A stretch of 64,000 nt of DNA from Coptis chinensis (lineage: Eukaryota > Streptophyta > Magnoliopsida > Ranunculales > Ranunculaceae). The number at the start of each line of letters is the position of its first letter. Position 1 is the first letter of the stretch. Shown in pieces: positions 20,749 through 57,800 of the stretch. The translations under genes were made by a program, and so were the position numbers. Location of the stretch: contig CM027377.1 in NCBI GenBank assembly GCA_015680905.1, forward strand, positions 20,050,501 through 20,114,500, read 5' to 3'. The notes under the pieces were generated by a model, which worked only from the letters and a program-made list of their open reading frames with translations, did no database searches and had not been told where the DNA came from.

Positions 20749-20804
20749 CTCCCTTAAACTAAAACATTTTCCCTTCGTTAAAAAAAAAAAAAAAAAAGAA
20801 GAAG

Positions 20805-37053: not shown

Positions 37054-37969
37054 TAGTAGATTAGTTAGAATTAGATACATGCTGTGTGTCTTGCCGAGGA
37101 AAGGAAGTAGTTCTGCAAAGAAGACAGACGTACCTCCGTACTATTTCTGTGTATGCATCGTATCAATTTCTGGTTATGGGTGCTAGCTTACGAGTGCAAT
37201 TTTTAAGCCTCGAGTAGAAGCAATCTTGGAGATGCTTGAACCTGTAGTACATTTTGAAGTGTTTTTACACTTTATTAGTCTATAAATTTTGGCTTCATGA
37301 TAGCCAGTTCTGATATGATCTGACATGGTGCGTTTTGAGAGAAAATATACTCTGATAATGAGCTATGCCGTGGTTTGGTCGTTTGGGGATTTTTTTGGAG
37401 ATTTTGGGTTATTTGATAGTTGAGTGGTTTGAATGAGATGATATTATGTAGATTTATTGTGAGTTTCAGGGGAATGTATCTGCAACAACTTGTACGTACA
37501 CACCTGGGTTTAAAGTGTTCAGGGAGAGAGAAATAAAGAGAACAGATGCGTTTTGCTATGCATGACAATGATCACTAATGTTGTAACTGGAAACAACGTT
37601 CTGTAGTTCTGGGTTTTAATAAGGTTGCCTAAACCAGTTGTAGAACTCCGAGGAGTTCGGATGTCTTCGCTGGAACTAATTTTATACATTTTAGGATTTT
37701 CACATGCCCTAATTTTATGCTATTATCCCATGAGTAGAACCATACATAATTCCGTGTCAGGGTCTGGTATATGGTATTTTGTGTCTTATTGTCTTCTAGA
37801 CTTTATGATTCCAGTCTTATTTAAATTATGTAAATGATCTTTGCATAATTTCTTCTTTTTTTCCAAAGATGGCGGTGACATGCTTTAAACATTTGTCTTG
37901 CCTTTCTGTAAACTCTTAGTTAGATTTATGTCATGCTGTTTAATTATCTTTTGTTTTCAATTTTACAGG

Positions 37970-38104
37970 CTGCCGAATTCGCTGTATATAATCTGAAGGA
38001 GATAGAAAAGACATTATTTTTGCATCATTTTTCAGATCCATTGAAACTTTCTGGAAGCTGGGATGGATTTTCAATAGTGAAAACATCGACTTTGGTCATT
38101 ATGG
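37970..38104 (+). other. Exon-like open segment, unidentified
   Basis: After a pyrimidine-rich stretch and TTTTACAG (37962-37969) a 45-codon open segment reads AAEFAVYNLKEIEKTLFLHH, continues through DPLKLSGSWDGFSIVKTSTL and ends before ATG|GTATGT, a good donor. The AAEFAVYNLKE start is faintly like the first helix of plant cystatins (AAxFAVxxYN), but the QxVxG loop is not present. It may be an internal exon of a broken gene. No flanking exon was recognised. Confidence 0.25.
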
Positions 38105-38349
38105 TATGTACCTAAGCTTTCCTTTATTTTGATTGGCAAGCCAAGCCTGTTGGTGGAGTGTAAAGAGAGGAGATGGTGGAGTGAATGTGGTGGTGGAATA
38201 TTGGAATTGAAGAAGAAGAAGAGGTTGTTTCTGCCTAGAACATGCCTAATTTTTGTCGATCAACTCCAAAAACAATTATCAATTATTGAATTCCTCACAA
38301 AAATTTAGGAGATGTGAATTTTAGAAATGATTCCGGTCATATGGTCGGG

Positions 38350-39036
38350 TCTTAAACCTTGTAATTGATTAAATTGGGATATTGATAAGTATTTATTGGG
38401 CTTATTTAGTCAAAGCTAATAAAGCCAATAGAAAACCAATACATATTAAATTGTGATATTCATTAGTATTGATTGGTTAGTCAAGCTTAATAAAGTCAAT
38501 AGGAGTATTGATTGGGCTGCTTAACCCAATTAACAGTGTAAAGACTTTTCTTAATGCCCACCTAAAACCTGCTTAACCCAATTAACAGTGTAAAGACTTT
38601 TCTTAATGCCCACCTAAAACCTGGGAAGATCTCGACCACACGTGTCTCTCCAGACGTCGATCCACAATGCAAACTAACACCTCCTCCAAAAACCGTTGTG
38701 TCTTATTATATAATTAAATTGGGATATTGAGCAGTATTGATTGGGCTTATTTAGTTAAGGCTAATAAAGTCAATAGGAAAACTGATGCATATTAAATTGT
38801 GATATTAGTTAGTATTGATTGGTTAGTCAAGGCTAATAAAGTCAATAAAAAAACCGGTACATATTAAATTGTGATATTGATATTGATTAGTATTGATTTA
38901 GTTGCTCAACCCAATTAACAATGTAAAGACGCCCACCTAAAACATGAGAACATCACGACCGGACACGCCCCTAGACACCAATCCACACCGCGAACTAACA
39001 CCTCTTTCCAAAAACCGTTGTGTCTTATTATATAGA
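38350..39036 (-). mobile_element. Helitron-type 5' end with internal repeats
   Basis: On the minus strand the sequence from 39036 begins TCTATATAATAAGACACAAC after a host A at 39037, like a Helitron 5' end. The body carries five related units around TATTAAATTGTGATATTGAT and GGCTAATAAAGTCAATAGG (about 38366, 38448, 38718, 38793, 38867) and an exact 52-bp tandem duplication at about 38519-38622 (CTTAACCCAATTAACAGTG unit). A palindrome CCGGTCATATGGTCGG-like near 38333-38348 could be its 3' hairpin, but a CTRR end followed by T was not found, so the lower boundary is uncertain. Confidence 0.4.
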
Positions 39037-39088
39037 TGAATATGAAGATAATAAGATAAATTATTCAATGCTCCACGCTCTATGGATA

Positions 39089-39120
39089 CTAGCAAGATGC
39101 ACGTGCTATGCACGCGATGT
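39089..39120 (-). mobile_element. Helitron-type 3' end
   Basis: On the minus strand a hairpin GCGTGCATAGCACGTGC-like (about 39099-39116) is followed by ATCTTG and CTAG (39092-39089) and a host T. This satisfies the Helitron 3' pattern. The element would extend towards higher coordinates. A similar but worn copy of the hairpin appears near 39317-39337. The matching 5' end was not found. Confidence 0.4.
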
Positions 39121-40035
39121 TAAACAAAACTTGCCGAAAAGTATAAATATAATTTGGGTGAGCACACTTACAATTGATATTACGTTTGAGCAGACACATT
39201 GGCAGTCGTTTAAATTTTGAATTGAATGGAACTTTATTCCTATTTGATTTCCAGACATACCTAAATAATAAACTGTTAAGTATAGCTCCAAATAACATGT
39301 ACTTTGAGACTCTCATCGTAGCAAGTGCACGTTGCAAACGACAAAGATAAAAAATTAGTGCATAAAAAGCATCTATGTAACGCTATTCACTGAAATTAGT
39401 ATCCAACCCTTAGGTAAATTGGGCACGCTCGATGAGCCTGAACTGGAGAGGTAGTCTTGAGTAATTGCTTCTATTTAATCGAGGACATTGGCTCTGGTAT
39501 TTCGCAATGTCGGTTGGCATGATGACATATTAAGTAGAACGTAGACAACGAAAACTTAATTGAGTCACGAAACAAATTTACTTTTAGAACCGTCTAATTT
39601 ATTTGTGGTGAACTTAACCATATTGGTTGGGTACTTGGGTTATGGGTCTCTAACTTGGTGCTTCAAGCGTTCAAGTGATAATAGGCCTTGGTCAATTTTA
39701 TGTTAGCAAATTGGGTTATCACATAATCAAAATCTACATCAGCACCTCACAAGAAAAAGATCAGTATGAATGTCTACATCAGCACCTCACAAGGAAAAGA
39801 TCAATATGAATGTAATAGACTCATGGGGCAGAACCAAGATTAATTCACATTGGAATGAGTTTAACGATTCACATTTACGTAAATCCCAGAATTGGATAGG
39901 TTACATTGCGTAAATCCCATAATTAATTCCTATGAGGATCTTGCTAAGGCAATAAGGTTTAAGAGCTAGAGAAGTTAACATATCCTATTTCACCAATTTA
40001 AAATCGTTCCACGGGTATTTATCAAGTAATTAGAT
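39121..40035. other. Stretch without recognisable genes
   Basis: Nothing coding was recognised. A 30-bp unit with TCTACATCAGCACCTCACAA is duplicated at about 39731-39798. Part of this interval may be body of the Helitron whose 3' end lies at 39089. Confidence 0.35.
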
Positions 40036-41216
40036 AAATTCAAAAATTATCACCATTCGACAATATGCCATTATCTATATTATTTAACGACTAATTAACC
40101 AGATTATAGTAAGCCTTTTTTGGTTTCAAGATGTATGAAAAAAAAATTTCTCATTGCTTAATGAGTAAGTTTCTTATTGGGAAAAAAAAGGAGATCTGCA
40201 AATTAAAACATCGTGTACAGAATTCCTAATTGACATATAATTAGAAGTTGCAAAATATTACAGACAAAAGTAGGAGAAGGTTTATGTACACTTTCTTGTT
40301 GGGCTATACATCATTGCCACTTGATGAAGAAATTGTCAAAATATATGATGACTCAAGCCCTTCACTTAACAGAAAATCTTTCCACTTGTGGTGGTTGGCC
40401 CTGACTTCTTCACCAACTTCACTGTTTTGCACATACTCTCCTTTGTAAACCAACCATCTTCCGATCCTCAGTTATTCCCTCCCATCTACGGCCACAACCA
40501 CCTTTAGTTCTCTAGTCATAACTTGGCATTTACAAATTGATCCCCAGCATGGGGCACCAAACTATCTGGCAAGTGTTCACCAAGGATTCCCACATAGCCA
40601 CAATGACTCACAAAACACCATTCAAAAATTCAAAAATTATCACCATTCGACAATATGCCATTATCTATATTATTTAACGACTAATTAACCAGATTATAGT
40701 AAGCCTTTTTTGGTTTCAAGATGTATGAAAAAAAAATTTCTCATTGCTCAATGAGTAAGTTTCTTATTGGAAAAAAAAAAGGAGATTTGCAAATTAAAAC
40801 ATCGTGTACAGAATTCCTAATTGACATATAATTAGAAGTTGCAAAATATTACAGACAAAAGTAGGAGAAGGTTTATGTACACTTTCTTGTTGGGCTATAC
40901 ATCATTGCCACTTGATGAAGAAATTGTCAAAATATATGATGACTCAAGCCCTTCACTTAACAGAAAATCTTTCCACTTGTGGTGGTTGGCCCTGACTTCT
41001 TCACCAACTTCACTGTTTTGCACATACTCTCCTTTGTAAACCAACCATCTTCCGATCCTCAGTTATTCCCTCCCATCTACGGCCACAACCACCTTTAGTT
41101 CTCTAGTCATAAACTTGGCATTTACAAATTGATCCCCAGCATGGGGCACCAAATTATCTGGCAAGTGTTCACCAAGGATTCCCACATAGACACAAAGGCA
41201 CAATGACTCACAAAAC
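40036..41216. repeat. Recent tandem duplication, about 590-bp unit
   Basis: The block at about 40036-40622 is repeated at about 40626-41216 with only a few visible differences, including one A-run length change and GGAGATCTG versus GGAGATTTG. Identical 66-codon shadow frames at 40248 and 40839 mark the offset of 590-591 bases. The unit covers the 3' part of the UGT relic on the minus strand. Confidence 0.9.
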
Positions 41217-41325
41217 AACCCACTAAAGGGTGACTCAGGATAAGTTCTTCTTGGACCCAGTCTACATGAACTTCCCCTCTTTCACTGATGCTATCTTTAA
41301 ACCCCTCAGGCAAAGCTTCCTTCAT
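40250..41325 (-). pseudogene. UGT79-like glycosyltransferase pseudogene, 3' end duplicated
   Basis: The minus strand reads [20 protein letters not shown] and then [20 protein letters not shown] (41325 to about 41200), continuing [18 protein letters not shown] frame change leads to [20 protein letters not shown] (about 41120-41050) and, after another change, SEVGEEVRANHHKWKDFLLS (about 41000-40940). The last two pieces occur again in the second copy at about 40530-40350. This is the C-terminal, UDP-sugar-binding half of a plant family 1 glycosyltransferase of the UGT79 (flavonoid glycoside glycosyltransferase) type. The usual PSPG core HCGFGSMWES is altered to [10 protein letters not shown]. 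The N-terminal acceptor half is missing upstream of 41325 and at least two frame changes are present, so the gene is dead. Confidence 0.75.
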
Positions 41326-42201
41326 TGTTATTAGTAAATGGTTAGAATAAAGACTATACAGAGTTGTACGTAATTAAGCAAGTTGTACATGGTACATGGT
41401 CATAAGATTGTTAGAGTTTGACGCATATATCCACCATCATACTCTTACTTAAACCCTTACTATTCATAAAATCACACAAACAACATGAAAAGAAAAATAA
41501 CAATTTGGTCAAGAAAATGATCATAATATAGATCTTACTGGCTTACAATGATATTCTCAGCTCCATGGAATTTGAGAAGTACCAAAAGCAGCTTGTTAAT
41601 GCAGTAAAAAACTCAGCAATACTGAACTTTACATGTGTCGCTGCCCAACCTTAGCTTAGAATAAAGATAAATAATTAATGAAAGGTAAAAGCCAACCTTA
41701 GCTTGAAGCTGCAAATAATTGATGTAGTCAATGGTTTCATCCAGTGTAGCATCTTTATCGCTTTACTTGGGACTAAATGAGCGTTTAGTATATGACATGG
41801 TAAATTCTCAAAAGCAAATGATATTGCATTAGTACACCTGCAGAAATAACATGATGAATACAGATAAATTGTCAATTGATGTGCATAGTTTATAAACTAA
41901 GTTGTTGATGATGAGACGTCGAGGAACACGATAAAAGGGTGAGATATATACACGAGATTCCTATGCAACCGTTTAGTGCCCAAAGGCGGTGTGGTACACT
42001 AACACTTGCCCAAATATTGAGTGTGTTGGATTTGTATGCTCGGCAGATTCAAAGCACCAAACATGATGTTAATATTGGAATGGTTTTCCACAGTGTCGTC
42101 TCATTTGATTGAGAAAGCAGTCTTTTCTCTTCAGCAGCGTCCATAATTTAAGCGTTCACCTAGATGAGCCACTCACAAATATAATATTGAATTTAGTAAA
42201 G

Positions 42202-43015
42202 CATCTTTAACTCATCTATAACTCATCACTAAACAACAATGTTTAACTCACAACAACAGAGCTAGAAGGTTTCTAGTGGTTTACTGCTTAAGACTTGGGA
42301 GGTTAGGCCCAAGGTCTTAGGTTTGATTCCTCCTTCACGGGGGATAAAAATTAAAAGGGGATTAAGGAATAAAAGTTTCTTTTAATAATTAAAATAAAAT
42401 GAGTGAGTGTATTGACCATACCAGCCAAGGTGCTTGGTGACTCCTTTGTGTCTTATTGTATGTCATCTTAAATCTTTTCCACCAAAACCTTCATTAGATG
42501 TGTGGGACCAACTTGACCATTGTCAGCAGGTGCATAGTTGTTATTCCTCTAGATATCCATTCTCCAAGGAAAATATTGTATAACCAACTACTACAACCTT
42601 AGAACTCATGTGCAACTTGTGTAGCACTCATGATGAAAATAGATATAAAAGTTAGCAGAAATATTGGATGCAAAAAATATCGTGCTTCAAACCTAATATA
42701 ATCCTAATGCACCTTAAGCTCAAACAATAGTACTATATCCTAAAATGTTGCCCATTGCTCCTTATAGCAATACAACAAATCACTGTACCTTAGTGACCAA
42801 GCTTGTAGCAATACAACAAATCACTAAGGTCCTTTCACACTCGATCAGGCATAACACCAAACGTACAATGAGGCACACCAATACATAAATTTACAGATCC
42901 ATCAAAAGAGAGAAAAAATAGATGAGTTTACATTTAGTACAAAACTGGTCTTTTAGTAAAAAACTTATGTGCATTAAGTTTGTACCGAAGTTGAGTTATA
43001 GATGAGTTGAAGTTG
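42202..43015. mobile_element. TIR element, about 0.8 kb, non-autonomous
   Basis: The left end CATCTTTAACTCATCTATAA and the right end, read inverted, CAACTTCAACTCATCTATAA continue together to CTCA. About 21 of 24 bases pair. No transposase coding lies between them. A clear target duplication was not found, so the superfamily is open. Confidence 0.45.
42258..42400 (+). mobile_element. Possible tRNA-derived SINE fragment
   Basis: TCTAGTGGTTTACTGC (near 42278) resembles a Pol III A box and AGGTTTGATTCC (near 42331) is one base from the B-box consensus GGTTCGATTCC. Spacing is about 45-50 bases, and a T/A-rich tail follows. Plant SINEs often show such a CTAGTGG...GGTTCGAATCC head. No flanking duplication was found. 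Confidence 0.35.
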
Positions 43016-43227
43016 TCTAAGAATTCAAATCCTATAATAAACTAATACTTGTTAATCAATCTGGCTCATCCCTTCGAAATGATCTTTTTCTATTTGCCCT
43101 TGTTTCCACACCTTATATGAAGTTCTCATAGCAGTTGGGCCTTGGTTTTCGAGGCTATATCTAATTTACAGAGAACTTGGCGGACATGTCGAGGAACCGG
43201 TAAAACTTGTTGTTGGTTGTGGTTGTT

Positions 43228-43228
<1 letters not shown>

Positions 43229-43268
<40 letters not shown>
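43229..43268 (+). repeat. (GT)n microsatellite
   Basis: About 20 consecutive GT repeats, followed by GGTGGTGGTGGGG. Confidence 0.95.
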
Positions 43269-43269
<1 letters not shown>

Positions 43270-44375
43270 TGGTGGTGGGGTGTCTTGACAACCCATGGAA
43301 AGAAAAAATTGCACCTGCAATTGGTTTTAGCATGTTAAGATTGAGTAATAAGAAGGCAATCCTACTTCATCCAACAAAGGTTGTCGGAGTTGTTGAAATT
43401 TGGGTTAATCAGCCATATGTTTCTTATGAGTAATCTATGCTCTTAAATTCTTTCCATTTACTAAAAAATTGCAGGCCAAAGCTAATCTAAATCGTAGTAT
43501 ATTTGACATTGATTTTAGCTCAAAGCCTAAAAATTACTTATATAAACTATGAAGTACCTTAATGTAGATTGTCCAAGTACAAAGCAACTTGCTCACTACT
43601 AATCACTAATACAAAGCAAAGTGGTGAGAACTTACCATAGACCAAACTAAGCTGTAATGAATCACAAAATGGTATAGCATTAATTAACGCAAAGAGGGCG
43701 AAGAAGGAGAGCAGAGAAATGCGTGTTGACCAATTCCTTATTATCCTATTCTCCAACCATTCTACAGGGCACTTACCACCTGAATCAAACCAAAAATCCA
43801 ATTTACACAAATATTACAACAAACATACACTGAAAATGCAATAATTCAAGGACCCAACATCAAAATGTAATAGAACAACATTGATTTAAGGAAAATAAAA
43901 GTCACAATGGATGTGAGAATAATTGGTGTTTCCATGTACAAAACAAACAACTTACCTTGTTATTCTAAGAAGCCACGTAGATAAACGCGAGACTATCACA
44001 TCCACTTTCTCCGATCCATGAAAAAGTAATCGGCTGTGCCATCAATCCCAATGCCCCGGTGGAAGATTATGTACTTTAAATACACCAAAAATCCATATCA
44101 GTTTAATATTTTTGAACAGTCAGTAAATAGAAAGACAGATGCACCCACTTTTCTTCATTCCAGTACATATAATGCTTACCAAAATTAAAAGAAGATCTCA
44201 ATCATCTGATGTTGATACTGACGTGATTGATAGAAATTTCAGGTATTAAGGTTGTGTCTTGTGAGGGCAAGAAAACTAATGGTGTCATTCAAAAACCAAG
44301 AGAAGAAAGTCAGAGGAATCACTGGGAGAAGTAAACAAAAGGCAAAAGATGAATGTGGCTTTGTGTGAAATTAAC

Positions 44376-44753
44376 CTCAGGCATATTGAAAGGAACAGAA
44401 ATCAGTGCTTTGGAAGCTGTGGCATGCAACTCTAAAGAACCCTCAAAAGCCAAACCACGTTCTAATAACAGACACAATGTATCAACAGATATTTGGAACT
44501 CGATGTTCCTCCATGAGAATCAAGTTGCTGAAAATCTGCCTCGAAGGCCCCGAGTAAAAATTTAATCATCACCACAAACATATTTGATGGAAAAAGAAGT
44601 TCTTCCCTTGTTTGAGAAGAATCCCTTAATTTTGGTTGTTGCTTGGAAATATAATCTAGCATGTCTCTGATCTTAGGATATTCAATTTTGGAAGTTCTAT
44701 TCATGGATCGGGAATCATCTTTCCAGAGAAATAGACCATCAAGTGCAAGTTCC
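44376..44753 (-). pseudogene. ECM29: ECM29 proteasome-adaptor gene fragment (single exon)
   Basis: After an acceptor CAG (44756-44754) the minus strand reads ELALDGLFLWKDDSRSMNRT, continues with YPKIRDMLDYISKQQ and TREELLFPSNMFVVMIKFLL, then GAFEADFQQLDSHGG. A one-base frame change near 44515 leads to IEFQISVDTLCLLLERGLAF and EGSLELHATASKALISVPFN before a donor at CCTGAG|GTTAAT (44376). This matches, from memory, an internal part of plant ECM29, the HEAT-repeat protein that tethers the 26S proteasome. No other ECM29 exon was recognised on either side, so this is an isolated, broken fragment. Confidence 0.65.
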
Positions 44754-45642
44754 CTGAAGATGAGAAAATCAACGGATTAGTCAACTACAAAGAAAAAGGA
44801 AACAGACGAAAAAAAAAATACCTAGTTGAGATGTCCATGTCTATTCACCCCCTCCATCGAAATTAAACTCTCCGTTCATGAAATTCATTCTATTGATTAC
44901 AAACAACCGACAATTTTAGGGGAGAACTTCATGAGATAGAAGCATGTCTGAGAAAAGTTCACCATCCTCGGATGCTCCCATGGAAAATTCCACATGCCCT
45001 CCTAAGAGAAAATTCCCACAAAAATTATGTAGAGAAGTGGGTGTCCACCAGAAAATTTTCCATGTAACCCTTAATATCTCATTAAGATTCTCACATAGGA
45101 GGGAAAATTCCCTCAACAAACAAACACTGCATTTTTTTTTTTTTTTTAAGAATTCCCTCAACATCTAAGAATTGGTGGGTTTGGGAGATGGAGAGAAGGG
45201 TGAGAGACGATGGACCGATTTTTTTTTAGATGGAGAGAAACCGTTGGTCAATCGGTATTAATGGAAATTAAAGGGTAATTAAGTTGCTAATTAAATAGCT
45301 AATTAATTATATTTATTTTGCGTACAATTCAAAATAGAGGCGTGGATTTAAAATTTTAATCAACCACCACATGGAATGACCAATTACTCCCATTCAAAAG
45401 TGTTAAACAATACTTTAATTTAAAGACAAAATCGGTACATTAAATTTGCAAAGAGTGAAAAAGACAAAATAACCCTTCTAAATATTATATAAGTGTTTTT
45501 TATTTAAGTATTCATCAGGGGTATTATGCGTAAGAAAAATACCCGGATGAATTTAAGGGTCCATAATAGTTATAGGTATTACTACTAGTAGAGATGTGAG
45601 GACCACCATATATATTTTCCATTTAGTGTTAATTTTAAGTGG
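44754..45642. other. Stretch without recognisable genes
   Basis: No coding was recognised. There is a poly(T) run at about 45131-45146 and several imperfect GGAAAATTTTCC palindromes at 44980-45120. Confidence 0.4.
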
Positions 45643-46687
45643 GTGTTTAGATCTCATTTTTTCTTAAAAAATATTTTTCTAAAAAAATATTTATTCTAAA
45701 AACAATTTTTAAATAAACATATTTGGCTGTGATTTTTCTTGAAAGCTATTTTATCAGACCAACACATTTCGTGTAATATTTCTCGACATATTTCTGCATA
45801 TTGCGTCATTTAGTACTAAAACATCCAGGGCAGTTCATTTGCCTTAAGCGACCAAAGTGAGAAATCCCCAAAAAGACAGTTTATTAACTTGAAAAACAAG
45901 TTTTTGCTATTTATCCTAACAAGAAATAAGCCAAAAGGCCCAATTTTCAATTTTAGTCATAGTCTAGGACAGTTGGGTTTTGAAACTATTAATAAGGACA
46001 TTTTTTGGCTTATAACTACTAGAAAAACCAGATTTCTCGTTTTAATTATTAATAAGGGCAGACTTGACTTTTTTATTTTTTACTCTTTCGAATTTGACCC
46101 TTATATGTTTGGTATGCACAGAAGCTTGTGCATACTTCGCATACCAAGAGGTGGTATGCACTGACACTTGTGCATACCATTTTCTTTGTAATGTTTGGTA
46201 TGCACTGACGTCTGTGCATACCTCTCATACCAAGAGGTGATATATTCACTAATACTTGTGCATACCATTTTCTTTGTGATGTTTGGTATGACCGACATAA
46301 TGCATACCATTTTCGAAGAGGTGGTGATGTTTGGTATACCATTGACATTTGATGCATTGACATCCTTGTGCATAAGAACCAAGAGGTGGTATGCATTGAC
46401 ACTTGTGCATACCATTTTCTATGTGATGTTTGGTATGCACTGACGTCTGTGCATACCTAAGGTGGTATGCACCAACACATGTGCATACCATGGTACTATT
46501 GTCTTTTTCAGACAAAAGTCAACTATTGTCTTTTGAGAGTGTTTTTGAAATGAGGGTGGGTTTTTTAGTTTGTTATTTCGGAATTTTGTTCTTTTCAGTT
46601 TTGTCCCCTTATCCTAAAACATGTTTTTTGGACCAATAAATATTTTTGGGTGAAAAACTACTTTTTAGAAAAATGGAGATCAAACAT
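45643..46687. mobile_element. Inverted-repeat element enclosing a hairpin array
   Basis: The left end GTGTTTAGATCTCATTTTTT, followed by CTTAAAAAATA, is mirrored at the right end. Read inverted, the right end gives ATGTTTGATCTCCATTTTTC then TAAAAAGTA. The ends are about 1.04 kb apart. AT-rich flanking arms continue inward on both sides. There is no transposase coding. The interior holds the GGTATGCAC...GTGCATACC array (46108-46490). A target duplication was not found, so the class is open. Confidence 0.45.
46108..46490. repeat. Array of short palindromes GGTATGCAC-N-GTGCATACC
   Basis: Nine or so hairpin units occur at about 46112, 46152, 46197, 46233, 46284, 46332, 46387, 46432 and 46463. Most have the form GGTATGCACTGAC, a short loop of three or four bases, then TGTGCATACC. 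Units are joined by CATTTTCTTTGTGATGTTT or CAAGAGGT linkers at a period of about 45 or 90 bases. Two units are worn. Confidence 0.9.
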
Positions 46688-47159
46688 GGTTATTTTTTCA
46701 AAAAACATTTTTTCACTAATAAATATTTACTTGCAATAAATAAATACGATCCTAGTTAACTTTACACGTTATTATTTCAAATTGGTAGAAATATAATATC
46801 AATGCCAGTTAGAGCATCTTTAGGAGAGAAACCAAGAAAACACCAAATTTTAGAACCAAATTAAACACCAAACCAAAAAAACACCAACCAACTTTAGGAG
46901 AGACATCAAATTTTCAACATCAAATGACGCGGTTTTGGATAAACTGCGCCATAAAGCCCACTGGGCTTTCTCAACACCGCGCACTGAAGCCCATCGTAAA
47001 GGCCTAAGCCCACGCGGTCGGTGTTCTCAATACAGCGTGCTATATCTATATAAACAGGACCAAAGCCGCGCAGTTAATTCATTTTTAACTTTTCTCTCAA
47101 TTCATAAACCCTCTCCTTAGTAAAAAAAAAAAAACCTACCTAAACTCTTGAAATTTTAA

Positions 47160-49418
47160 ATGGATCATTTTCAACCTTTCGACGGTGATGACGAAGAGTA
47201 TTGGCAGTACACAAACGACATTGGCGATGAAGTACAAGCCGATGGGGGAGAAGAACGATGAAGTACAAGACGGTGGGGGAGAAGAAGCTGAGGATGTCAC
47301 ACCGACTGATAGACATCCCTATGTACTTGAGTATCAATTGAACGACTTCGATTGGAAATTTAATCCCGATGAAACACTTGATATGCAAGTTGTGTCTTCT
47401 ACACGTGATACAAAACACGTGTCGAGTGTAGTGGCTAATTCTCAGGTAATTAATTAGTTTTGATTAAATATTTTGAATATTATGCATTACTTAGTTGAGT
47501 TGGACCAATTAATTATTTATCTTATACGCATTATTTTTTTTTTCATAATATCAACAAGTTATTGACTACCGAGTTAGATCGGCTTTACTTGGTATTAGAG
47601 AGTGGTGGAAGGTTATTAAGAGTTTGGTACACCTTTGGGTCTTTTGGTTGATGTTGATTATGAGAAGGCTGATTGGACAATGGTCATAGCTTTAGTAGAA
47701 AGATGGTGGAATACAACTCATATATTTTATTTTTCTTGTGCGGAGTTAGAGTTCACACCACTAGACTTCACCATGATTTCTGGGTTGAGTATCGGTATAG
47801 GCCAACCGATACCTTTTAACACAAATTATGAGAACATTGGTAGTATGCTTACTCATTTTCCTCGCTTGGAGGCGGATGCTTATGATTCTTCTGGTATTAA
47901 GCTATCTTATATTAAGACTGCATATATGGAACCTCTCTTGGATCCTAATACACGAGCGGAGTTAGCTTTGACTATTCTACCTGGTAGTGAGGGCGATGAT
48001 GTGTATGTTAGGGCTTTTTTGATGTTTTTTATTAGGCATGTTTTGTTTCCAAATGGTCATTCTACGGTACGCGGGGGATATTATGCTTATGTTTTTATTT
48101 GTATAATATGAGAGATTATAACCTTGGTAGCTCAGTATATGCCACATTGATAGCGGCGTTAGACAAATCTTCACAGACATTAATTTGGAAGTATAAGTCC
48201 TTAGATTGCAGGATTCACAAGACTTTTGGAGATTTGGTTTTATGAGTACTTCCGTTGTCTTTGCCCTAACATAGACATGATTGCTGATACTCGCCCTAGA
48301 TTTGCTAGTTGGTCAGGGCCTCACTTGACTCATAATAGAGGCAGTATATTAGAAATAATGTGTGTATGGCTCGTGCTCAGATTGATATTAGATCATTGTC
48401 ATCTATTGAGTGGAGACCTTGGCGTTTTCGACTACCTTTGACGATCGGTTATGCGGCAAAGATGCTTGTGTTTTGTCACGTCCACGAGTTATTTTTGCCG
48501 CATGTCGCAAAAGTTGGTAACCGCTTGTGGCGGCAGATGTTGGAGACAATTGACTGGACATTATGGAGTTCCATGTGCTCCCATACCAGATGTTAGTGAT
48601 GCGAAGTCATGGAGTAGAACTCAAGTTCATGAAGTTCATGGCAGTGGTGGTCCTTGGCCAAATGCGTTTTCTTTTGTTGTTGAGCAGACTGCTGATCAGT
48701 ATTATAAATGGTGGAACCGTATCTCCATGGGTCCGTTGTTGCCCCCTGTTGGTCGGGCTAACAACTTCGAGTTTATGGGACTAACAGGGATGAGACGTGA
48801 GCTACATATTCCTCATCCGCCACAGCCTGTTTACAACCCACAACCTATGAATGCATATCATCTAGCTCTTGTGTCTGCCACTAATCCGATGATGTTTGCC
48901 GTGTGTGGACCTGATGGGGAGGCTATTTACCTTTCCATTCCTGAGGTGCCTGATGCTCATTTCCATGAGTTAGAGCCGCAGATTAATCAGTATACCCTGA
49001 TGAGTTTAGTTGTTTTATTTATCTTCTTTATTATATATATAATATGTACTCACACTGTATTTTCTTGGATTTTCAGGATGTTTATCGGGAAAGATATGAG
49101 AGCAATATTCGTATGTTTGATGGGATGAAGACTGCTTTGTATCATTACATCCAAGAAAGAGAGGAGGCATATTCTCAGACATATCAGTAATCCCAACGTG
49201 CGTATGAGGAGACTCGAAAAGCATATGAGGATATTCAGCAGGTGTACACGCAACAACATCATGGATATTATTAACTTCAGGCTGAGGTAGTTAACCTTCG
49301 TGCAGACATAGAAGATCTTGGTTCTCAGGTTAAGAACTTAGAAGAGCAGCTTCGGAACATCCAAATAGAAAGAGTAGAGTCATCGAGTGGTAAGGGGCGT
49401 AAGAAGAGAGCTAAATAA
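47160..49418 (+). pseudogene. Plant mobile domain (MAIN/MAIL1-like) protein gene, lightly broken
   Basis: An ATG at 47160 opens MDHFQPFDGDDEEYWQYTND. A 31-bp tandem duplication at about 47226-47287 shifts the frame, after which EYQLNDFDWKFNPDETLDMQ follows up to a donor near 47445. After an intron, LGIREWWKVIKSLV and, one frame away, ALVERWWNTTHIFYFSCAEL, then EFTPLDFTMISGLSIG (47635-47800) are the hallmark of the plant mobile domain (PF10536). Further pieces are DYNLGSSVYATLIAALDKSS, IWFYEYFRCLCPNIDM, RPRFASWSGPHLTHNRG and WRPWRFRLP. A C-terminal part from 48560 to 49000 follows, then a coiled coil (NLRADIEDLGSQVKNLEEQL) and a basic tail GKGRKKRAK ending at 49416-49418. Two in-frame stops and several frame changes mean this copy is probably dead. 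The host relatives MAIN and MAIL1 act in genome stability and silencing of transposons. Confidence 0.75.
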
Positions 49419-49499
49419 ATTTTATGTAATATGATAGTTTTTTAATCATTTTGGATATTGGATCATATAATCATAGATTTTGGATCATTTTTATCATTT

Positions 49500-49592
49500 T
49501 GGATACATAATTATAATAATAATCATAATCATAATCATAATCATAATACATAATCATAATCATAATCATAATCATAATCATAATCATAATTA
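49500..49592. repeat. (ATAATC)n microsatellite
   Basis: About 14 near-perfect ATAATC units within the mobile-domain transposon, between the gene and the right end. Confidence 0.9.
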
Positions 49593-50218
49593 TAATCATT
49601 TTGGATACAATTGAACACTTCTTAATTTCTTCAATTGCAAACTTCCTAATTTCTTCAATTGCATCCAAATACCTAATTTCTAATTTTTAGATAAAACACA
49701 CACGGTGTTGGCAAAACTGCGCCATAGAAGCCCAAGCCCAGGCGGTGTTGACAAAACCGTGCCATATAAGTCTAATTAGAAGTCAAAGCTCACGCGGTGT
49801 TAGAAAAACTACACTGTTTTTCTAAAACCGCGTGAGTGATTTGATACATCACCAAAGTTGGAACCAAATTTTGGCCGATTTGGTGTTTGGTTTGTTTGGT
49901 TTGTTTTTTTTTTTTTTTTTTTTTTTAATGTTTTCATCAACATGTGAGTCTCCTGAAGATGAAAAAACACCGAAATTTAGTGTTTGATGCTAAGAAAATA
50001 TCTCACCTAAAGATGCTCTTAAGAAAACAATTGACATATTTTAAATTGTAATCGACAGAATCACCAAATTGAAAAAAATTGAAAGTAGAAATGAAATTAA
50101 ATGAAAATCAATCACCAAATCGGAAAAAGTAGACCAAGTTGACCACTAAGTTGATAGTTAGTCTTTTGTTTACAGATCAGAATGGAGATTAAACTCGTTT
50201 GAGGACAATATTCCAGCA

Positions 50219-50356
50219 ATCTATAATCAAACACATTGAATTGTTGACTCGGAGAACTCTATAATCAAACACATTGAATTGTTGACTCGGAGAAACTCGA
50301 GGACAATATTCCAGCAATCTATAATCAAACACCATTGAATTGTTGACTCGGAGAAA
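50219..50356. promoter_or_regulatory. Tandem repeats each with a W-box, upstream of GLR exon
   Basis: A unit TCTATAATCAAACACATTGA plus ATTGTTGACTCGGAGAA occurs three times (about 50220, 50258, 50318). Each copy carries TTGACT, a WRKY-binding W-box, at 50244-50249, 50282-50287 and 50343-50348. They lie 175-280 bp upstream of the GLR start codon. Clustered W-boxes often mark defence-induced plant promoters; function here is inference. Confidence 0.6.
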
Positions 50357-50522
50357 CTTGGACTGCGACACATTAATGTCTAGATTGTCTGATTAATTGC
50401 TAGTAAATACTAGAAACTCATGAATTAATTCATTCCTTCACAGGGAGAAGGGCTCTCTACACGTATGAACAAAACTTTATCAAGCTAAAGCATTAACGAC
50501 CAACCCAACATCTTCTGTTCCA

Positions 50523-50787
50523 ATGAAGAAGATAACAGACTATCCCTCACTTTCTTCTTCTATTATCTTTGTGTTAGTGTTAGTGTGTGCAATCAAAAGT
50601 ATAACTAGTGAGATGTCAAGTGTAGATGTAGGGGTGATTCTGGATTTGGATACATGGGTAGGAAAGATGAGCCAAAGCTGCATATCTATGGCGCTCTATG
50701 ATTACTACTCGACTCGCAATTACACTAGAAAGTTGGTTCTTCATACCCGAAACTCCAACAGTGACATAGTAGGTGCCGCTTCAGCAG
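50523..50787 (+). CDS. Glutamate receptor-like (GLR2 clade) first exon
   Basis: The frame from 50523 starts MKKITDYPSLSSSIIFVLVL and VCAIKSITSEM, a signal peptide with a hydrophobic core at about residues 13-28. It continues SSVDVGVILDLDTWVGKMSQ and SCISMALYDYYSTRNYTRKL up to DIVGAASA, where a strong donor GCAG|GTACGT lies at 50787/50788. VGVILDLDTWVGKM...SCISMA is the start of the extracellular amino-terminal ligand-binding domain of plant GLRs, which are plasma- or endomembrane cation channels. The exon ends at the place where exon 1 of GLR2-type genes ends, as I recall. No second exon (ALDLL..VQAIIGP-like), channel pore or YTxM region was found downstream, where only transposons follow. 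It is either a truncated gene or one whose next exon lies beyond 64 kb. Confidence 0.65.
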
Positions 50788-50947
50788 GTACGTAAAATTT
50801 GATCAATAAACTGCAGGTAACACTGTAACAGTTAAGCCCTCCTTGATATATTGTTTTTCTTTCGTATTTTGAACATGTGGCATTAGGCTTAGCTTGTAAC
50901 CAGAAAATTAAGAGTGCCAAAATTAAGAGTGCCAAAACCTGTGGGAC

Positions 50948-51564
50948 TAGGGGTGTGTTTCGGTCGGATGGGATTGGAATATGGGTTTTCGGTTTCGGAA
51001 TCTGATATGTTGTGCCGAATCCGATCCGTTTTTCGATTTTTTTCAGAAGTTTTGGAAATTAGATGAAAATTGGAATTTGGAAAAAATGGGAAATTGGGAA
51101 ATTGGATAATTTGGATAAAAATAGGAAATGATTGAAAATTCAAATATCTTAATATTAAATCTATTTTATAACTTGTACAATAAATACTAATTCTAGGGTT
51201 TTTAGTTTGATTGTACTATATATTATTGATTATGCAAGTTAATCCATTGTAAATGAGCGGAAAAAAATGGGGTTATATTAAAACAATTCTAATTACATTA
51301 GAAATTTAGATATATTGTATGTAATTCCAAATAATAATTCGGCAAAATCGGATATAATTGGGCAAAATTGGATCGGATATGTATCCGCGGATTCAGGGAA
51401 AAAACGGAATTTCAGAAATTATCCGAAGCCAATCCGAATTTAAATCAGATTTTCGGCAATTGGATTTTTGGAAATCAGTCGAATAATATTGATGTCGAAT
51501 CCAAAAAATTCAAATCAGAATTCGAAAAAATTGGAATTTCGGGAAAAATTGCACTCCTAATCCT
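50948..51564. mobile_element. Possible MITE with CCGAAT/ATTCGG-rich arms
   Basis: The segment starts TAGGGGTGTGTTTCGG and ends GCACTCCTA; the terminal eight bases pair with one mismatch. Both arms are rich in TTCGGAAT/ATTCCGAA words and the centre is AT-rich, like other TAGGG(C/G)TG-ended hAT MITEs in this window. A convincing 8-bp duplication is missing, so boundaries are tentative. It lies in the intron that would follow the GLR exon. Confidence 0.4.
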
Positions 51565-51659
51565 GACGATTACAAAATGGTTTTGAGAAGTTCACAAGAT
51601 CCAAAAGTTTTGGTTTCATTCTTTTGATAGGAAATTGTTTGAAATGATTGTTTGTTTTT

Positions 51660-51930
51660 TGACGATATGATTAAGTGGGATTACAACATCCCTAGTTTTC
51701 ATTAATAAATCTCTGTTACACAGTATAGTACCTAGTCCGTCCTCCATTACAATTGTGCTAAATAAGTCTTTCATCAAAATGAGAATAGAACATCAACACA
51801 TACCTAGAACTATTACATTCATTCAAGTACAGGGAGGTTAAGTAATCAGCAGCCTTATTAGTCTCCCTATAAACATGCTTGAATTCAACATAATCAAAAG
51901 CATGCATGAACCAAATGAAATATGGATTCT
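51660..51930 (-). mobile_element. LINE 3' fragment (RNase H-like tail)
   Basis: The minus strand reads FEFKHVYRETNKAADYLTSL-like coding at about 51910-51830 (the motif HVYRETNKAADYL). This is the last helix of the RNase H domain found at the C terminus of plant L1-type LINE ORF2. About 120 bases of 3' sequence follow. It may belong to the LINE at 59.3-64 kb or be a separate fragment. Confidence 0.4.
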
Positions 51931-52565
51931 AGCACATTCATACAAAACCAGGGACTCCATTCTCTTGATTGCTTTTGTTGTAGTTTGAAATGGTTGTTAC
52001 GTTGTAGTTTATGTTGTAGTTTTTATTCAAAATGCCACATTATGAATTCAACTAAGAGTTCTGAAAGTTCTGCCTGTCTTCTAGCTAAACAGGGCCGGCT
52101 CAACCCAAAATGTGGCCTTAGGCGAAACGTTAAGCTAGGCCTTTATTTTCTAGCCTGTCTATAATCACCAAAAAAATTCACCATATATATTGCAAAGAAA
52201 TACAATAGAAAAAAAACCAATTTTTATTATAAATTAAGAGCCAAATCTAGTATTAAGTCACAAATCAAATGAAAACTACAAAAACGTAACCAAATGAACA
52301 TCAAAACTATAAGTAAATGAAATAAAAAAAAATTCAAATTTCACAAAAAAAAAAAAAAAAAAAAAAAACTATGAGTATGAGATGATTAACCGTTAAGAAC
52401 TCAAAGAGTGAAATAGACAAATGGTTAAACTTGAAATTGGTGAAATAGAATAAGTGAGAGAGAGAGAGAATTAATGAGAGAAGTGCAACGCCAAAATTTT
52501 TAATTAAGAAGAAGAAGAAAAAGAAGAAAAGGCATAGAATGTGGAGATTCTATCACTAAACATGG
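51931..52565. other. Stretch without recognisable genes
   Basis: No coding was recognised. A poly(A) run of about 24 A sits at 52346-52369 and a (GA)n run near 52458-52470. A block beginning CAGGGCCGGCTCAACCC near 52087 looks like the end of some repeat, but no partner end was found. Confidence 0.35.
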
Positions 52566-53197
52566 GATTTTGATAAGATGAGAATGGATTGATATGAAAT
52601 ATTTACTTGATTAATTTCTACATATTACACAATGATATATTTAGCGTTTACAAGTGAGAGAATCACTCTAAGTGATTCCTAAATCTATGGGATTAATGTC
52701 AATCCAAAAATATTGTTACTATACACATGAGTGTTACTATGTTGGGCGAGAAGAAATCCATAAACAATCTGTACAAATGGTGGGTAAGGTCCATTTTAAG
52801 GGAAAGGGGGTGAGCCCGGCCCGTAAGTTGCACTGAATGTAAGGGCATGCGCCCCATTACTTCTATCGCTCCCCCTCAAGTTGGAGAGTGAATGTCAAGA
52901 ACACCCAAACTTGCGAATTAATCTTAGGAAGACGTCCTTGCCAAGAGGTTTATTGAATGTGTCAGCAACCTGATTTGAGGATGAAATGAAGCTAGGAGAT
53001 AATAATAATTTGGCTCTGTATCTTTTGGTTAAGAAATGACAGCTCAATTCGATGTGCTTCGTTCTTTCATGGAAAACCGGATTCTGAGAGATATGAAAGG
53101 TTGCTTGATTGTCGTCAGAACATGGTCATTGGAGATGAGTGAGATATGCCTTATAAATCATTCAAAAGATACTTCAACCATTGAAGTTCACAAGCAA

Positions 53198-53511
53198 TAG
53201 AGCATGGAATCGGGTCGGGTAGACCCAAATCCAACCCGACCCGATTACCGAATACATTGGGTTCGGGTCGATTTTCATATCCGTTCATGTATTCGGGTCG
53301 GATTCGGATTCGAGTATGTTGGATTCGAGATCGGGTTTAGATATAATTTTTGGGCTTTTTTTGAATTTCTAGTGTTATCCGATCGGGTCAGTCGGGTTTG
53401 AATATTAAATTTCGGATTTAATCGGGTTCAGGTTCGGGTTCGGATATTGTGAAACTATTCGGATTCGGATATAGCCATATCCGACCCGAACCTAACCCGA
53501 TCCCTGCCCTA
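53198..53511. mobile_element. hAT-type MITE nested in the copia RNase H region
   Basis: The 314-bp element starts TAGAGCATGGAATCGGG and, inverted from the right, TAGGGCAGGGATCGGG. The 8-bp flanks are ACAAGCAA (53190-53197) and ACAGGCAA (53512-53519), one difference. Arms are rich in CGGGTCGG/CCGACCCG. No transposase is present. It sits inside the RNase H part of the surrounding copia element, so it is the younger insertion. Confidence 0.8.
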
Positions 53512-54289
53512 ACAGGCAAGGGTCGCCATTGATCTATATTCTGCTTCCGTGGAAAAACGTGACATTGTGCTATGCTTCTTTGTTTTCCAGGAGAGAGGAC
53601 TAGAACCAAGGAAAGTACAATAAGCACTAGTAGAATGACGAGTGATAGGACAACCAGCCCAATCAAAATCACAGAAAGAATTAGCTAGTGGCTGATAATA
53701 GAATCCCTTTGTTCATTGAACCTGTGAGGTAGAGAAGTATACGATGAGCAACATCTAGATGTGTAGTCCGCGGGGACTGCATGCTAAGATAATGAATAAA
53801 GTAGTGTATAGGTCTTGTAACCGTGAGATATTGGAGGCGCCCAATCAAGCGACGGTAGGCTGTAGGATCCTGTAGTAATATGCCATCATCTGTAGTGGGA
53901 TTGATGTTTTGTTCCATACAGAAGTCAGAAATGAGACCACCAATGGTACCACAATCAGATAGAATGTTCTTGATACATTTGCTTTGCATAAGGAATAATC
54001 CTATATTTTTAGCGAGCCACTTTGATACCCAAGAAATATTTGAGACGTCCCAAGTCCTTGATATAGAACTTTGCTTCTAAAAAATGCTTCAAGTTTTGAA
54101 TGATAGATGGATTGTTACTTATGATCAAAATGTTGTCCACATAAACAAGGACTAATGTAGAATTAGAACTACGAATATTAGTGAATAGAGAATAAAAACA
54201 GACTTGGACTGAGTGAACCCTGCAGTGATAAGGGTGGAAGAGAGTTTGGCAAACCATTGCTGAGAAACTTGCTTGAGTCCATATAAGGA

Positions 54290-54875
54290 CCTATTAAGTC
54301 AACAACTAAGCAGTTAAAATGAGTTTTTAGAACTAATCGATCGAGGAGCAATATGCGATTAATCGGTTATATCACGTCGGATGTATATATTTGACACTTT
54401 CAAAATATAATCATACCAAATATTTCTAATAGTTATCTGAGATACAAAAAAAAAAATCAAATTCTCATAATCACAATTAACTAACTAAATATTGGAGTAC
54501 TACATAGATGTCAAACACAACAATTAAGTTAAATATTTAAAGGAATAAGGGAGAGAGAATCGATAATACAATAATTTGTATATTTAACTTTCGTTAAGGA
54601 AGGGAATGAAAATAAGTAAACTCTTAGCTTTATGTGTTGATTAGGTTCTATTATTATTAATACGGTTTAAGAATCCAATTCATTCATTTTATGTAATTTT
54701 TTGGTGGAGAACCAATTTTTTTTTCTCGGTTTAGTGAGAAATTAGTCATCTTGCCCGATTAATCGGTTAATTCGGTGATTAAATCGGATCGGTGAGAAAA
54801 TTTTTAAAATCGGTAAAATATAACCGTGTACAAGCGATATGCGATTAATCGGCCGAGATGACTGATATTGATAGC
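54290..54875. mobile_element. Foreign insertion within the copia element, about 0.58 kb
   Basis: Sequence that does not resemble copia coding interrupts the reverse transcriptase region. It carries ATATGCGATTAATCGG twice in the same direction (about 54350 and 54840) and many ATTAATCGGTT words. Terminal repeats and a target duplication could not be fixed, so the class is unknown. Confidence 0.45.
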
Positions 54876-57800
54876 ATAGGGCGACAGATCCTGTGCTCCC
54901 CCTATTTGGCGAATCCAGGAGGTAAAGTCATGTAGACGGTTTTATCTAAATCACCTTGGAGAAAGGCATTGTGGACATCCAATTGATGAAGTGACCAATT
55001 TCTGATAGCAGCAATGGATAGAAGTAATCGGACAGTGACTAATTTTGCAACAGAAACAAAAGTGTCATGATAGTCCCGTCCTTCAATCTAATTGTAACCC
55101 TTATCAACAAGACGAGCTTTGTAACACTCAATGGAGCCATCGAAATGATATTTGATATTGAAAACCCATTTACAACCAATAAGCTTATGATGGAATGATA
55201 ATGGAACAAGAGTCCATGTGTTATTCTTTTCGAAGGCTTCAATTTCAACAGCCGTAGTAGTTTGCCATTTTAGAATTTTGATAGCTTGAGAAAAGGATAT
55301 AGGTACAACTGAGGAAGAAACTTTAGATAATTTTTTTTTGTGACAAGTAAAAAAAAAAATTAGTATCAGAAACATATAAAACCATATGATATGGAGTGGA
55401 AGACTTAGTTATACCTTAGAGTCCGATTAAATGAGGTTGGTCAAACTAAGGGACTTTAGGTGCCTTAGTGAGAGTAGGACAATGATAATCTTGGATGAAA
55501 TGTGGTGGAGGTTTCGCACTCTAGTAGATCGAGGTGATGTAGGGGGATTGAGTGGTGGTGCTTGAGGATCGAGGTTCCAAATTAAGGTGCAGATGGTGCC
55601 TGAGGAGGTTCTAAGGGTGTGGGTTGTTGAGATGATTATGGAAGAGGATCATTAGGAGGCAAAATAGGAGCTACATGTGGAGGAGAATTAAATTCGAAAG
55701 TGACATTGTCTTGGATAGGTAAGGGGTGAACGTGTAAGTCTGATGGTCTGGAAGAGAAATGTTGATAAGAGAAAACAGTTTCATGGAAAAGCACATCATG
55801 GGATGTATAAATTTTCTTAATTGGAAGAAAAATCATAAATGTGATATCCTTTTTTAGCATAGGGATATCCAATGAAGATGGCAGGTTTACCTCTATGATC
55901 AAATTTATTTTGAATAGCAGTGTTAGGAGCAAAACATAAGCAACCAAAAACCCGAAAATGTGTAATAGTAGGTGGTGTTGTAAACAAAATCTCATGAGGT
56001 GATTTGCCATGTAATAACGGGCTAGGTGGTTTGTTAATGAGATAGCCTGCGGTGAGAATGCACTCACCCCAGAAAGATAATGGGAGATGAGACTGGAAAT
56101 ATAATGCTCGTGCGACATTGAGTAAGTGTCGGTGTTATCTTTCAGCAACGTTTTGTTGTGGGGGTAGCAACGCAACTACGTTGGTGGATAGCCCCGTGTT
56201 TGGAGAAAAAATGTTGCATAGTGTGGGATATAAATTCAGATCCATTGTCGGATCGAAGGACTTGGATTTCATCAAATTGGTCATCAATGTCACCATGGCC
56301 AGATATGAGCGAATGAATTTTAGAATGAAATTGAGTATGGACCATGACAAAAAAAGATTGTAAATGTGTGGCAATTTCAGATTTGACAGTCATAAGATAA
56401 ATTCATGTAGCAAGACTAAAATCATCTAGAATTGTTAAGAAAAAACGAGCATTTGAATATGATAGTAAATGAAAAGGACCCCAAATATCACAATGAATCA
56501 TTTGAAAAGGTCGAATAGTTTTCATTGAACTTTTGGGAAAAGATAAACATGTTTGCTTAGCTTGCGGACATATGTGGCAAGTAACATTATTGGAACTAGA
56601 AATAAAAGGAAATTGCTTAGCTAAAATCTGCAAAGGAGTGGAAGATAGATGGCCTAATTGACAGTGCCATAAATTATTGGTGGTGGCGTTGTGGAAGGAG
56701 CAAACTAAAGCTAGCTGAAGATGGTAGAGTTCGGCCCCCATTAAGTCATCCCAATCCAATCTTCTTCTTGCTTCGATAACTGGTCCTGAAAAATGCAAGA
56801 ATCATTAGTGAACATGACAGAGATAGGGTGAGACTTGACTAGTTCACTAATAGAAAGCAAATTAAAATGAAAGGTGGGAACAAACAGAACATTGTCGAGA
56901 TGCAATAGAGGAGTTTAAGAGTAACTACCAACATAAGTAATTAAATGTAATTAAATGATCAACATGAGTAAATGTAATTAAATGAGTAATTAAATGATCT
57001 ATTCCATCCGAAAGTTTAAGAGTGGAATGTTTTGGACATGTTTTATAATTAGAAAAAAAAATTAATGATGAACATACATGATTTGTAGCACCAAAATCGA
57101 TGATCCATATGGATTTAGAGAAACAGAGAGAGAGAGAGAGATTTGGACATGTTTTATAATTAGAAAAAAGAATTATATTAACGATGAACATACATGATTT
57201 GTAGCACCAAAATCGATGATCCATATGGATTTAGAGAGAGAGACCTGTCAGGTTTGTGTGTGAAGTGGTGCTACCTAAATTGAGCAGACTTAGAATTTTG
57301 TTGTATTGTTTTGTGGAGAAGACTAGAGGATTGGAATCTGTGGCAACCGAATTGGCTTGAGCATTCTTTGAGGGATAGCCATGCAGTTTATGACAAGTAC
57401 CAATATGATGTCCAACCCTGTTGCAATGGTCACAAAAGGGGTGTGGTATGCTATATAGTATTATCACGAGGAGTATGGCCGTGAGATGGAAAACTATTAT
57501 TAGTTGCATCTCTAGTGGGTTTACCATTGTTGCTTGGCTGAGAATTGTACTGGTCGGGTTTCGAAGGAGTCTAGTTGGACCTTTTAAATTGAGTGCTCAG
57601 GGCAGCAGCGTCTGGAGCAAAAGAAAGGGACAGTGCATGAATTTCTTGTTGTTTTTCTTCCTGTCTGATCAAAGAATAAATTTTAGACATATGAGGAAAT
57701 GGATCCATTAATAGAATCTGACTGCGAATATATTTAAAACAATTATCAAGACCTTGCATGGATTTCATGGAACAACCGTCTTCAATATCTTTGGCAAAAA

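Follow-up and report, generated by a model that had tools for sequence, protein, structure and literature searches.

A transposase-less PIF/Harbinger-type element family of Coptis chinensis with its own plant mobile domain gene, probably under selection during spread

Plant mobile domain (PMD) proteins are known both from hosts and from transposons. According to the accessible parts of the papers concerned, the Arabidopsis PMD proteins MAIN and MAIL1 function in silencing and also bind PP7L (PMC5418596, PMC7156037), PMD-A is encoded by Ty3/Gypsy retrotransposons and PMD-C by MULE DNA transposons, where several grasses and Amborella have it fused to the transposase (Ikeda et al. 2017, PMC5418596), and shielding from silencing has already been proposed for MULE-borne PMDs (PMC5418596, Ikeda et al. 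2017; 2021 review, PMC8616336). Here we describe a 3,207-bp element with terminal inverted repeats (TIRs) around a PMD gene, found in a 64,000-bp stretch of the Coptis chinensis genome (contig CM027377.1, positions 20,050,501 to 20,114,500; the window). It resembles the MULE PMD-C elements as a DNA transposon with a PMD gene but differs from them in that its PMD is standalone, its ends are of PIF/Harbinger type and no transposase was detected in it; Ty3/Gypsy PMD-A belongs to another class of transposable element. We consider it quite likely that the window holds a decayed copy of a Pong-like PIF/Harbinger family, whose members lack a transposase, carry a complete PMD gene of their own that was selected during spread, and would be mobilised in trans.

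In the text available from the sources cited, PIF/Harbinger and Pong-like elements with their Tourist-type miniature inverted-repeat transposable elements (MITEs) show the same TTA/TAA duplications, short TIRs, derived MITEs and proteins acting in trans (PMC2213677, PMC2836001), whereas the non-autonomous member described here is not non-coding but has a seemingly selected accessory gene. Pack-TYPE Harbinger elements likewise hold gene sequence between Harbinger TIRs without a transposase (PMC8903248), but theirs consists of captured coding-gene fragments and here a complete gene is retained across subfamilies. Epigenetic counter-defence genes occur as transposon cargo in VANDAL21, which itself encodes VANC21 (PMC8616336), and as TET/JBP genes in fungal DNA transposons (PMC12730594); the proteins differ from PMD in both cases, and, unlike the arrangement in VANDAL21, PMD and transposase were on separate elements among those we listed. 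We found no report of a PMD gene in a PIF/Harbinger element in the open literature as far as its text was accessible (subscription papers, preprints and Repbase lay outside the search), and a literature search with the TIR letters returned no title on transposon ends. Judged by these sources, PMDs in MULEs, the counter-silencing idea and Pack-TYPE Harbinger elements are already published, and a PMD in a PIF/Harbinger-type element is apparently new.

A previous sequence-only reading of the window had described 18-bp TIRs with 17 matches, a TTA target duplication and subterminal repeats around a single PMD gene, and our analysis bore out each of these features (Table 1). The element's own pair was the only TTA-flanked TIR pair in the window (≤1 mismatch in 18, spacing 0.2–6 kb), and dinucleotide-shuffling the window 200 times gave no comparable pair, which argues against chance TIRs. 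All four occurrences of ACGCGGT in the 64 kb, counted on both strands, fell in the subterminal regions of the element. PMD (PF10536) was the only credible Pfam domain inside the element. It scored 36.7 bits when a single open piece was scanned and 49.3 bits once stops had been replaced by X, against a curated cut-off of 34.9 bits; a six-frame scan found no transposase, and all non-PMD matches were weak and below cut-off. MULE-PMD elements have long TIRs and target duplications of about 9 bp, and this element, with an 18-bp TIR, a 3-bp duplication and no transposase domain found, does not match them. Lacking the DDE transposase of an autonomous PIF/Harbinger element, it is a non-autonomous member at most. 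Its TIR length lies within the 14–25 bp given for PIF/Harbinger, and its TIR, GAGCATCTTTAGG, lacks the PIF-like G(N)5GTT core, as expected of Pong-like elements (both by the accessible text of PMC2213677).

The element is one of many copies of a large TIR family whose members are flanked by TTA/TAA duplications. A search of the genome (936 Mb, nine chromosome-sized contigs) with the element DNA gave 60 matched places from the best 40 of 1,900 candidates, about 30 of them near full length at 81–87% identity. Both TIRs with ≤3 mismatches were present in 28 of 39 matched places that we fetched with their flanks as relatives. Identical 3-bp flanks bordered 24 of these 28 two-ended relatives (15 TTA, eight TAA, one TCA; four unmatched), compared to 12 of 560 at shifted control positions, so that the 3-bp TTA/TAA duplication of PIF/Harbinger elements is found in the window copy (TTA/TTA) and in 23 of 28 relatives. 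Lengths ranged from 2,954 to 3,235 bp in 27 two-ended copies, the remaining one (L044) holding an insert, and ACGCGGT was confined to the outer 350 bp in 26 of the 28. Genome-wide, the TTA+TIR 20-mer occurred 886 times at ≤1 mismatch and its TAA form 211 times exactly, with no occurrence of the reversed control or of the TAA control, respectively. When the flanks of the window insertion were joined, they matched C3:39611053-39611290 from end to end (80%) and, spanning the junction, C6:3108382-3108578 (83%), giving two paralogous empty sites. When joined-flank sets were compared with the fetched loci, a match across the junction was seen for one of 29 sets, that of L044, whose empty site, with a single TTA, is part of a repeat. 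In another relative, L040, a ~1-kb insert at about 3501–4520 of the oriented locus, with inverted ends around AATTTAGGG/CCCTAAATT, is probably a nested TIR element.

The same ends delimit MITEs. A search with the left 200 bp of the element gave 1,149 places, of which the best 40 were scored, and all six of these 40 that we fetched hold a MITE of ~350–540 bp with these left 200 bp; the right part aligns with the right end of the element in five, and in L049 only the TIR aligns. By the TIR criterion, five of the six have matching TTA/TAA flanks, the MITE at L050 failing it. At that locus (C3:114249900-114254388) a 3.17-kb PMD element and the MITE share one orientation and are separated by ~210 bp, in which a third right-end fragment lies.

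Elements with the same TIR also appear, by position, to encode a transposase of the superfamily. We compared the first 100 TTA-type and first 100 TAA-type TIR sites, all on C1–C4, with domain lists restricted to the best candidates (Plant_tran, 150 of 2,426; PMD, 97 of 3,607). The 200 ends include six facing pairs within 12 kb, spanning 436, 480, 486, 523, 2,826 and 3,204 bp. Of the two transposase families tried, DDE_Tnp_4 did not fit and Plant_tran (PF04827), which we take to be the PIF/Ping-Pong transposase, did. Of the 150 listed Plant_tran domains, five lay inside the 100 TTA ends, and on the outer side there were none within 10 kb; with the 100 TAA ends added (74 Plant_tran domains on C1–C4 plus one other), ten lay inside a perfect TIR and two outside within 8 kb. 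Nine of these ten were 808–914 bp and one was 1,311 bp from the end, all reading away from it. Positional evidence of this kind, together with the many full-length TTA/TAA copies, supports the PIF/Harbinger-type assignment of the sequence-only reading. The smallest distance between 96 listed PMD copies and the 150 transposases was 7.4 kb, followed by 28 kb, so that, as far as listed, PMD and transposase occupy different elements.

DDE_Tnp_4 was rejected as the family's transposase: for 150 of its 151 matches, the closest approach to the 100 listed TIR ends was 13.9 kb, and four fetched examples (L054–L057) carry a different TIR, GGGTGTGTTTGTTAACTGGCAAA, which contains the PIF-like G(N)5GTT core. 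These four (C2:38.5M, C8:48.2M, C2:58.6M and C8:79.9M) represent a PIF-like Harbinger family with ~95% identity between copies, open transposase frames and, in three of the four, Myb_DNA-bind_3 at 0.7–0.9 kb from the transposase; it looks recently active.

The PMD gene is laid out as a TATA box, three exons with predicted splice sites, a stop and a poly(A) signal. In the window copy it is a pseudogene, and the expectation of an intact gene there did not hold. The reading frame switches several times along the gene, and compared to the majority of 31 aligned copies the coding span has 11 indels, ten of them not multiples of three (counts that depend on the alignment). Exon 3 contains in-frame TAA stops at 49188 (CAA in 27 of 31 copies, TAA in three) and 49272 (GAA in 29 of 31). 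The predicted acceptor before exon 2 reads CAA, compared to CAG in at least 16 of the 31 copies, and the predicted donor after exon 2 reads AT, compared to GT in at least 23. Of the prediction that several full-length copies with TTA duplications share the gene, some of them intact, the first part thus stood, with 28 two-ended copies, and the second did not: exon 2 was unbroken in none of the 39 fetched relatives, where the longest open frame was 490 codons, compared to 534 in clade majorities. A 434-residue exon 2 query gave 99 matching rows from the best 97 of 3,607 candidates, and just two of these were full length without stops, namely the query's own copy, L036, in which the frame is broken upstream of the query part, and C3:83824227, in which exon 1 is open, a stop lies near the start of exon 2 and exon 3 is shortened. 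No close PMD relatives were confirmed in viral_contigs and genome_contigs, and the PMD piece had no sequence relatives in the PDB at E up to 1. A first look at PMD (PF10536) in this genome (G000) gave 3,773 candidates, the best-scoring of which seem to lie outside the PMD element family.

To estimate selection, we used the alignment of 31 copies, from which nine of the 39 fetched relatives were left out for length or missing ends (L034, L037, L038, L040–L044 and L047), and chose clades by eye on a midpoint-rooted FastTree tree, on which clade W is non-monophyletic. A naive test on shared variants gave no codon-position signal, and tree-based and clade-majority tests therefore followed. Between subfamilies, the pooled ratio of nonsynonymous to synonymous differences per site (pN/pS) of the PMD exon was 0.28 in frame, compared to 1.99 and 4.23 in the wrong frames, whereas for the private changes of single copies it was 0.86. 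The clade-majority PMD frames are open over 534 codons, with clade Z as the exception. Judging by these results, purifying selection probably acted on the PMD gene as the family spread, and after insertion the gene decayed in a near-neutral manner.

Several observations weigh against this interpretation or parts of it. Variants common to at least four copies showed no third-position excess (61:49:52), perhaps as a result of recurrent mutation; the majority open reading frame of clade Z is split; and the clade pair Y–W gave a pN/pS of 1.41, from six differences. Between-clade divergence of intron 1 (91–96 sites) was about as low as that of exon 2, or lower, in five of six pairs, so low exon divergence by itself is weak evidence of constraint. 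A fully open present-day PMD gene was not found among the 39 fetched relatives or the best 97 of 3,607 candidates. In addition, sharing of the transposase is read from positions relative to single TIR ends, and the silencing function has been reported for MAIN and MAIL1, not for the element's PMD protein.

Alternative explanations differ in how they account for the gene and for the missing transposase. The 3.2-kb PMD elements could be deletion derivatives of a long autonomous element, past or present, with transposase, open reading frame 1 (ORF1) and PMD. Canonical PIF/Harbinger elements have two genes, to which a third could be added (accessible text of PMC2836001), and only the best 97 of 3,607 PMD and 150 of 2,426 transposase candidates were scored; the distances between listed PMD copies and transposases and the narrow length range of the two-ended copies, with L044 explained by its insert, make this explanation unlikely. 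Pack-TYPE capture, with a host PMD gene trapped between Harbinger TIRs as a passive passenger, is less probable again. Such PIF/Harbinger elements are known in rice and maize (PMC8903248) and MULEs captured PMD-C genes twice (PMC5418596), by the accessible text of each, and no examined copy is intact. Against it, the gene is complete, with promoter and poly(A) signal, and the contrast in pN/pS between subfamilies and single copies, with open clade-majority frames, disfavours the gene capture suggested by the sequence-only reading insofar as this meant a passive passenger. Capture may be the origin of the gene but fails to explain its upkeep.

The sequence-only reading had also proposed that the PMD protein replaces the Myb-like ORF1 partner that would bind DNA for the transposase. 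No Plant_tran domain among the 150 listed had Myb_DNA-bind_3 within 5 kb, compared to 33 of 150 for DDE_Tnp_4 (145 of 150 Myb rows compared), as this proposal would predict. Plant_tran instead partners NAM-associated domains, presumably the ORF1 type of Pong-like elements: among the matches listed, 25 pairs lay within 6 kb, 24 of them convergent, and by position one NAM-associated domain is 867 bp in from a perfect TIR of the PMD-element family and two more are ~2 and ~6 kb in from TAA-type ends. With PMD and transposase also on different elements in the compared lists, we regard the replacement as very improbable. A host pseudogene of the ordinary kind, with ends that resemble TIRs by coincidence, would fit the broken gene of the window copy, but this explanation has a negligible chance of being right and is refuted by the shuffles, the matching flanks of 24 of 28 two-ended relatives and the empty sites.

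If the PMD elements are trans-mobilised satellites, a Plant_tran transposase with its ORF1 would move both them and the MITEs, and the shared TIR and ACGCGGT ends would provide the recognition route. The PMD protein may aid persistence of its own element or of the family. By analogy with the host proteins, its most likely role, which we put forward tentatively, would be interference with the MAIN/MAIL1 silencing pathway near element DNA, where it might compete with or redirect the MAIN/MAIL1–PP7L complex; dimerisation and contact with nucleic acid would be in keeping with its predicted coiled coil and basic tail. More speculative still is a division of labour within one TIR family among an element with transposase and ORF1, a satellite whose selected PMD protein would counter host silencing at DNA with the shared ends, and MITEs that benefit from both.

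Table 1. Coordinates of the PMD element, its ends and its gene in the window (TSD, target site duplication)
Feature	Position	Strand	Evidence
Whole PMD element, 3,207 bp, without detected transposase	46812..50018	+	TIR/TSD, ~30 near-full-length homologues, paralogous empty sites
Left TSD, TTA	46809..46811
Right TSD, TTA	50019..50021
Left TIR GAGCATCTTTAGGAGAGA, 18 bp	46812..46829	+
Right TIR, 17/18 vs left TIR	50001..50018	-
Left subterminal repeats, ACGCGGT at 46927 and 47012	46927..47018	+
Right subterminal inverted repeat, ACGCGGT on both strands (49792 +, 49827 -)	49789..49836
TATA box	47047..47054	+	Six commonest variants here (20/31 copies) all contain TATA
PMD gene exon 1; frame breaks near 31-bp tandem repeat 47225-47286	47160..47445	+	ATG in 30/31 copies
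PMD gene exon 2, holds plant mobile domain; several frame breaks	47555..48999	+
PMD gene exon 3, encoding coiled coil and basic tail	49077..49418	+

A Pfam scan of the flanks (37000–46811 and 50019–54500) detected no Harbinger transposase there; it found two Copia-type RVT_2 pieces, one of them above cut-off, and weak RVT_3 and Rad26-like_N matches below cut-off. Decayed pieces of a Copia-type retrotransposon extend over 52898–57600 on the minus strand (RVT_2 up to 54500, the rest by eye). An open reading frame at 50523–50795, some 500 bp downstream of the PMD element, gave no Pfam match; its product presumably resembles the N-terminal part of a plant glutamate receptor-like protein. Elsewhere in the window are host-gene pieces of a CLP1 P-loop (15609–16064, minus strand) and an RNA 3'-terminal phosphate cyclase (20763–21293, plus strand), both above Pfam cut-off; a long diverged repeat array at 33370–36450, mostly 66–75% alike with many overlapping self-matches; and a direct duplication of ~590 bp with 97.5% identity at 40036–41217.

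The accessible text of Ikeda et al. 2017 and of the 2021 review contains no selection estimate for a transposon's own PMD. The Coptis family supplies one, from a compact element in which PMD is the sole recognised gene and 31 aligned copies show a signal of constraint between subfamilies. It is an odd case of a transposase-less element that has apparently retained a working gene, and with this family the anti-silencing idea for transposon PMDs becomes testable.
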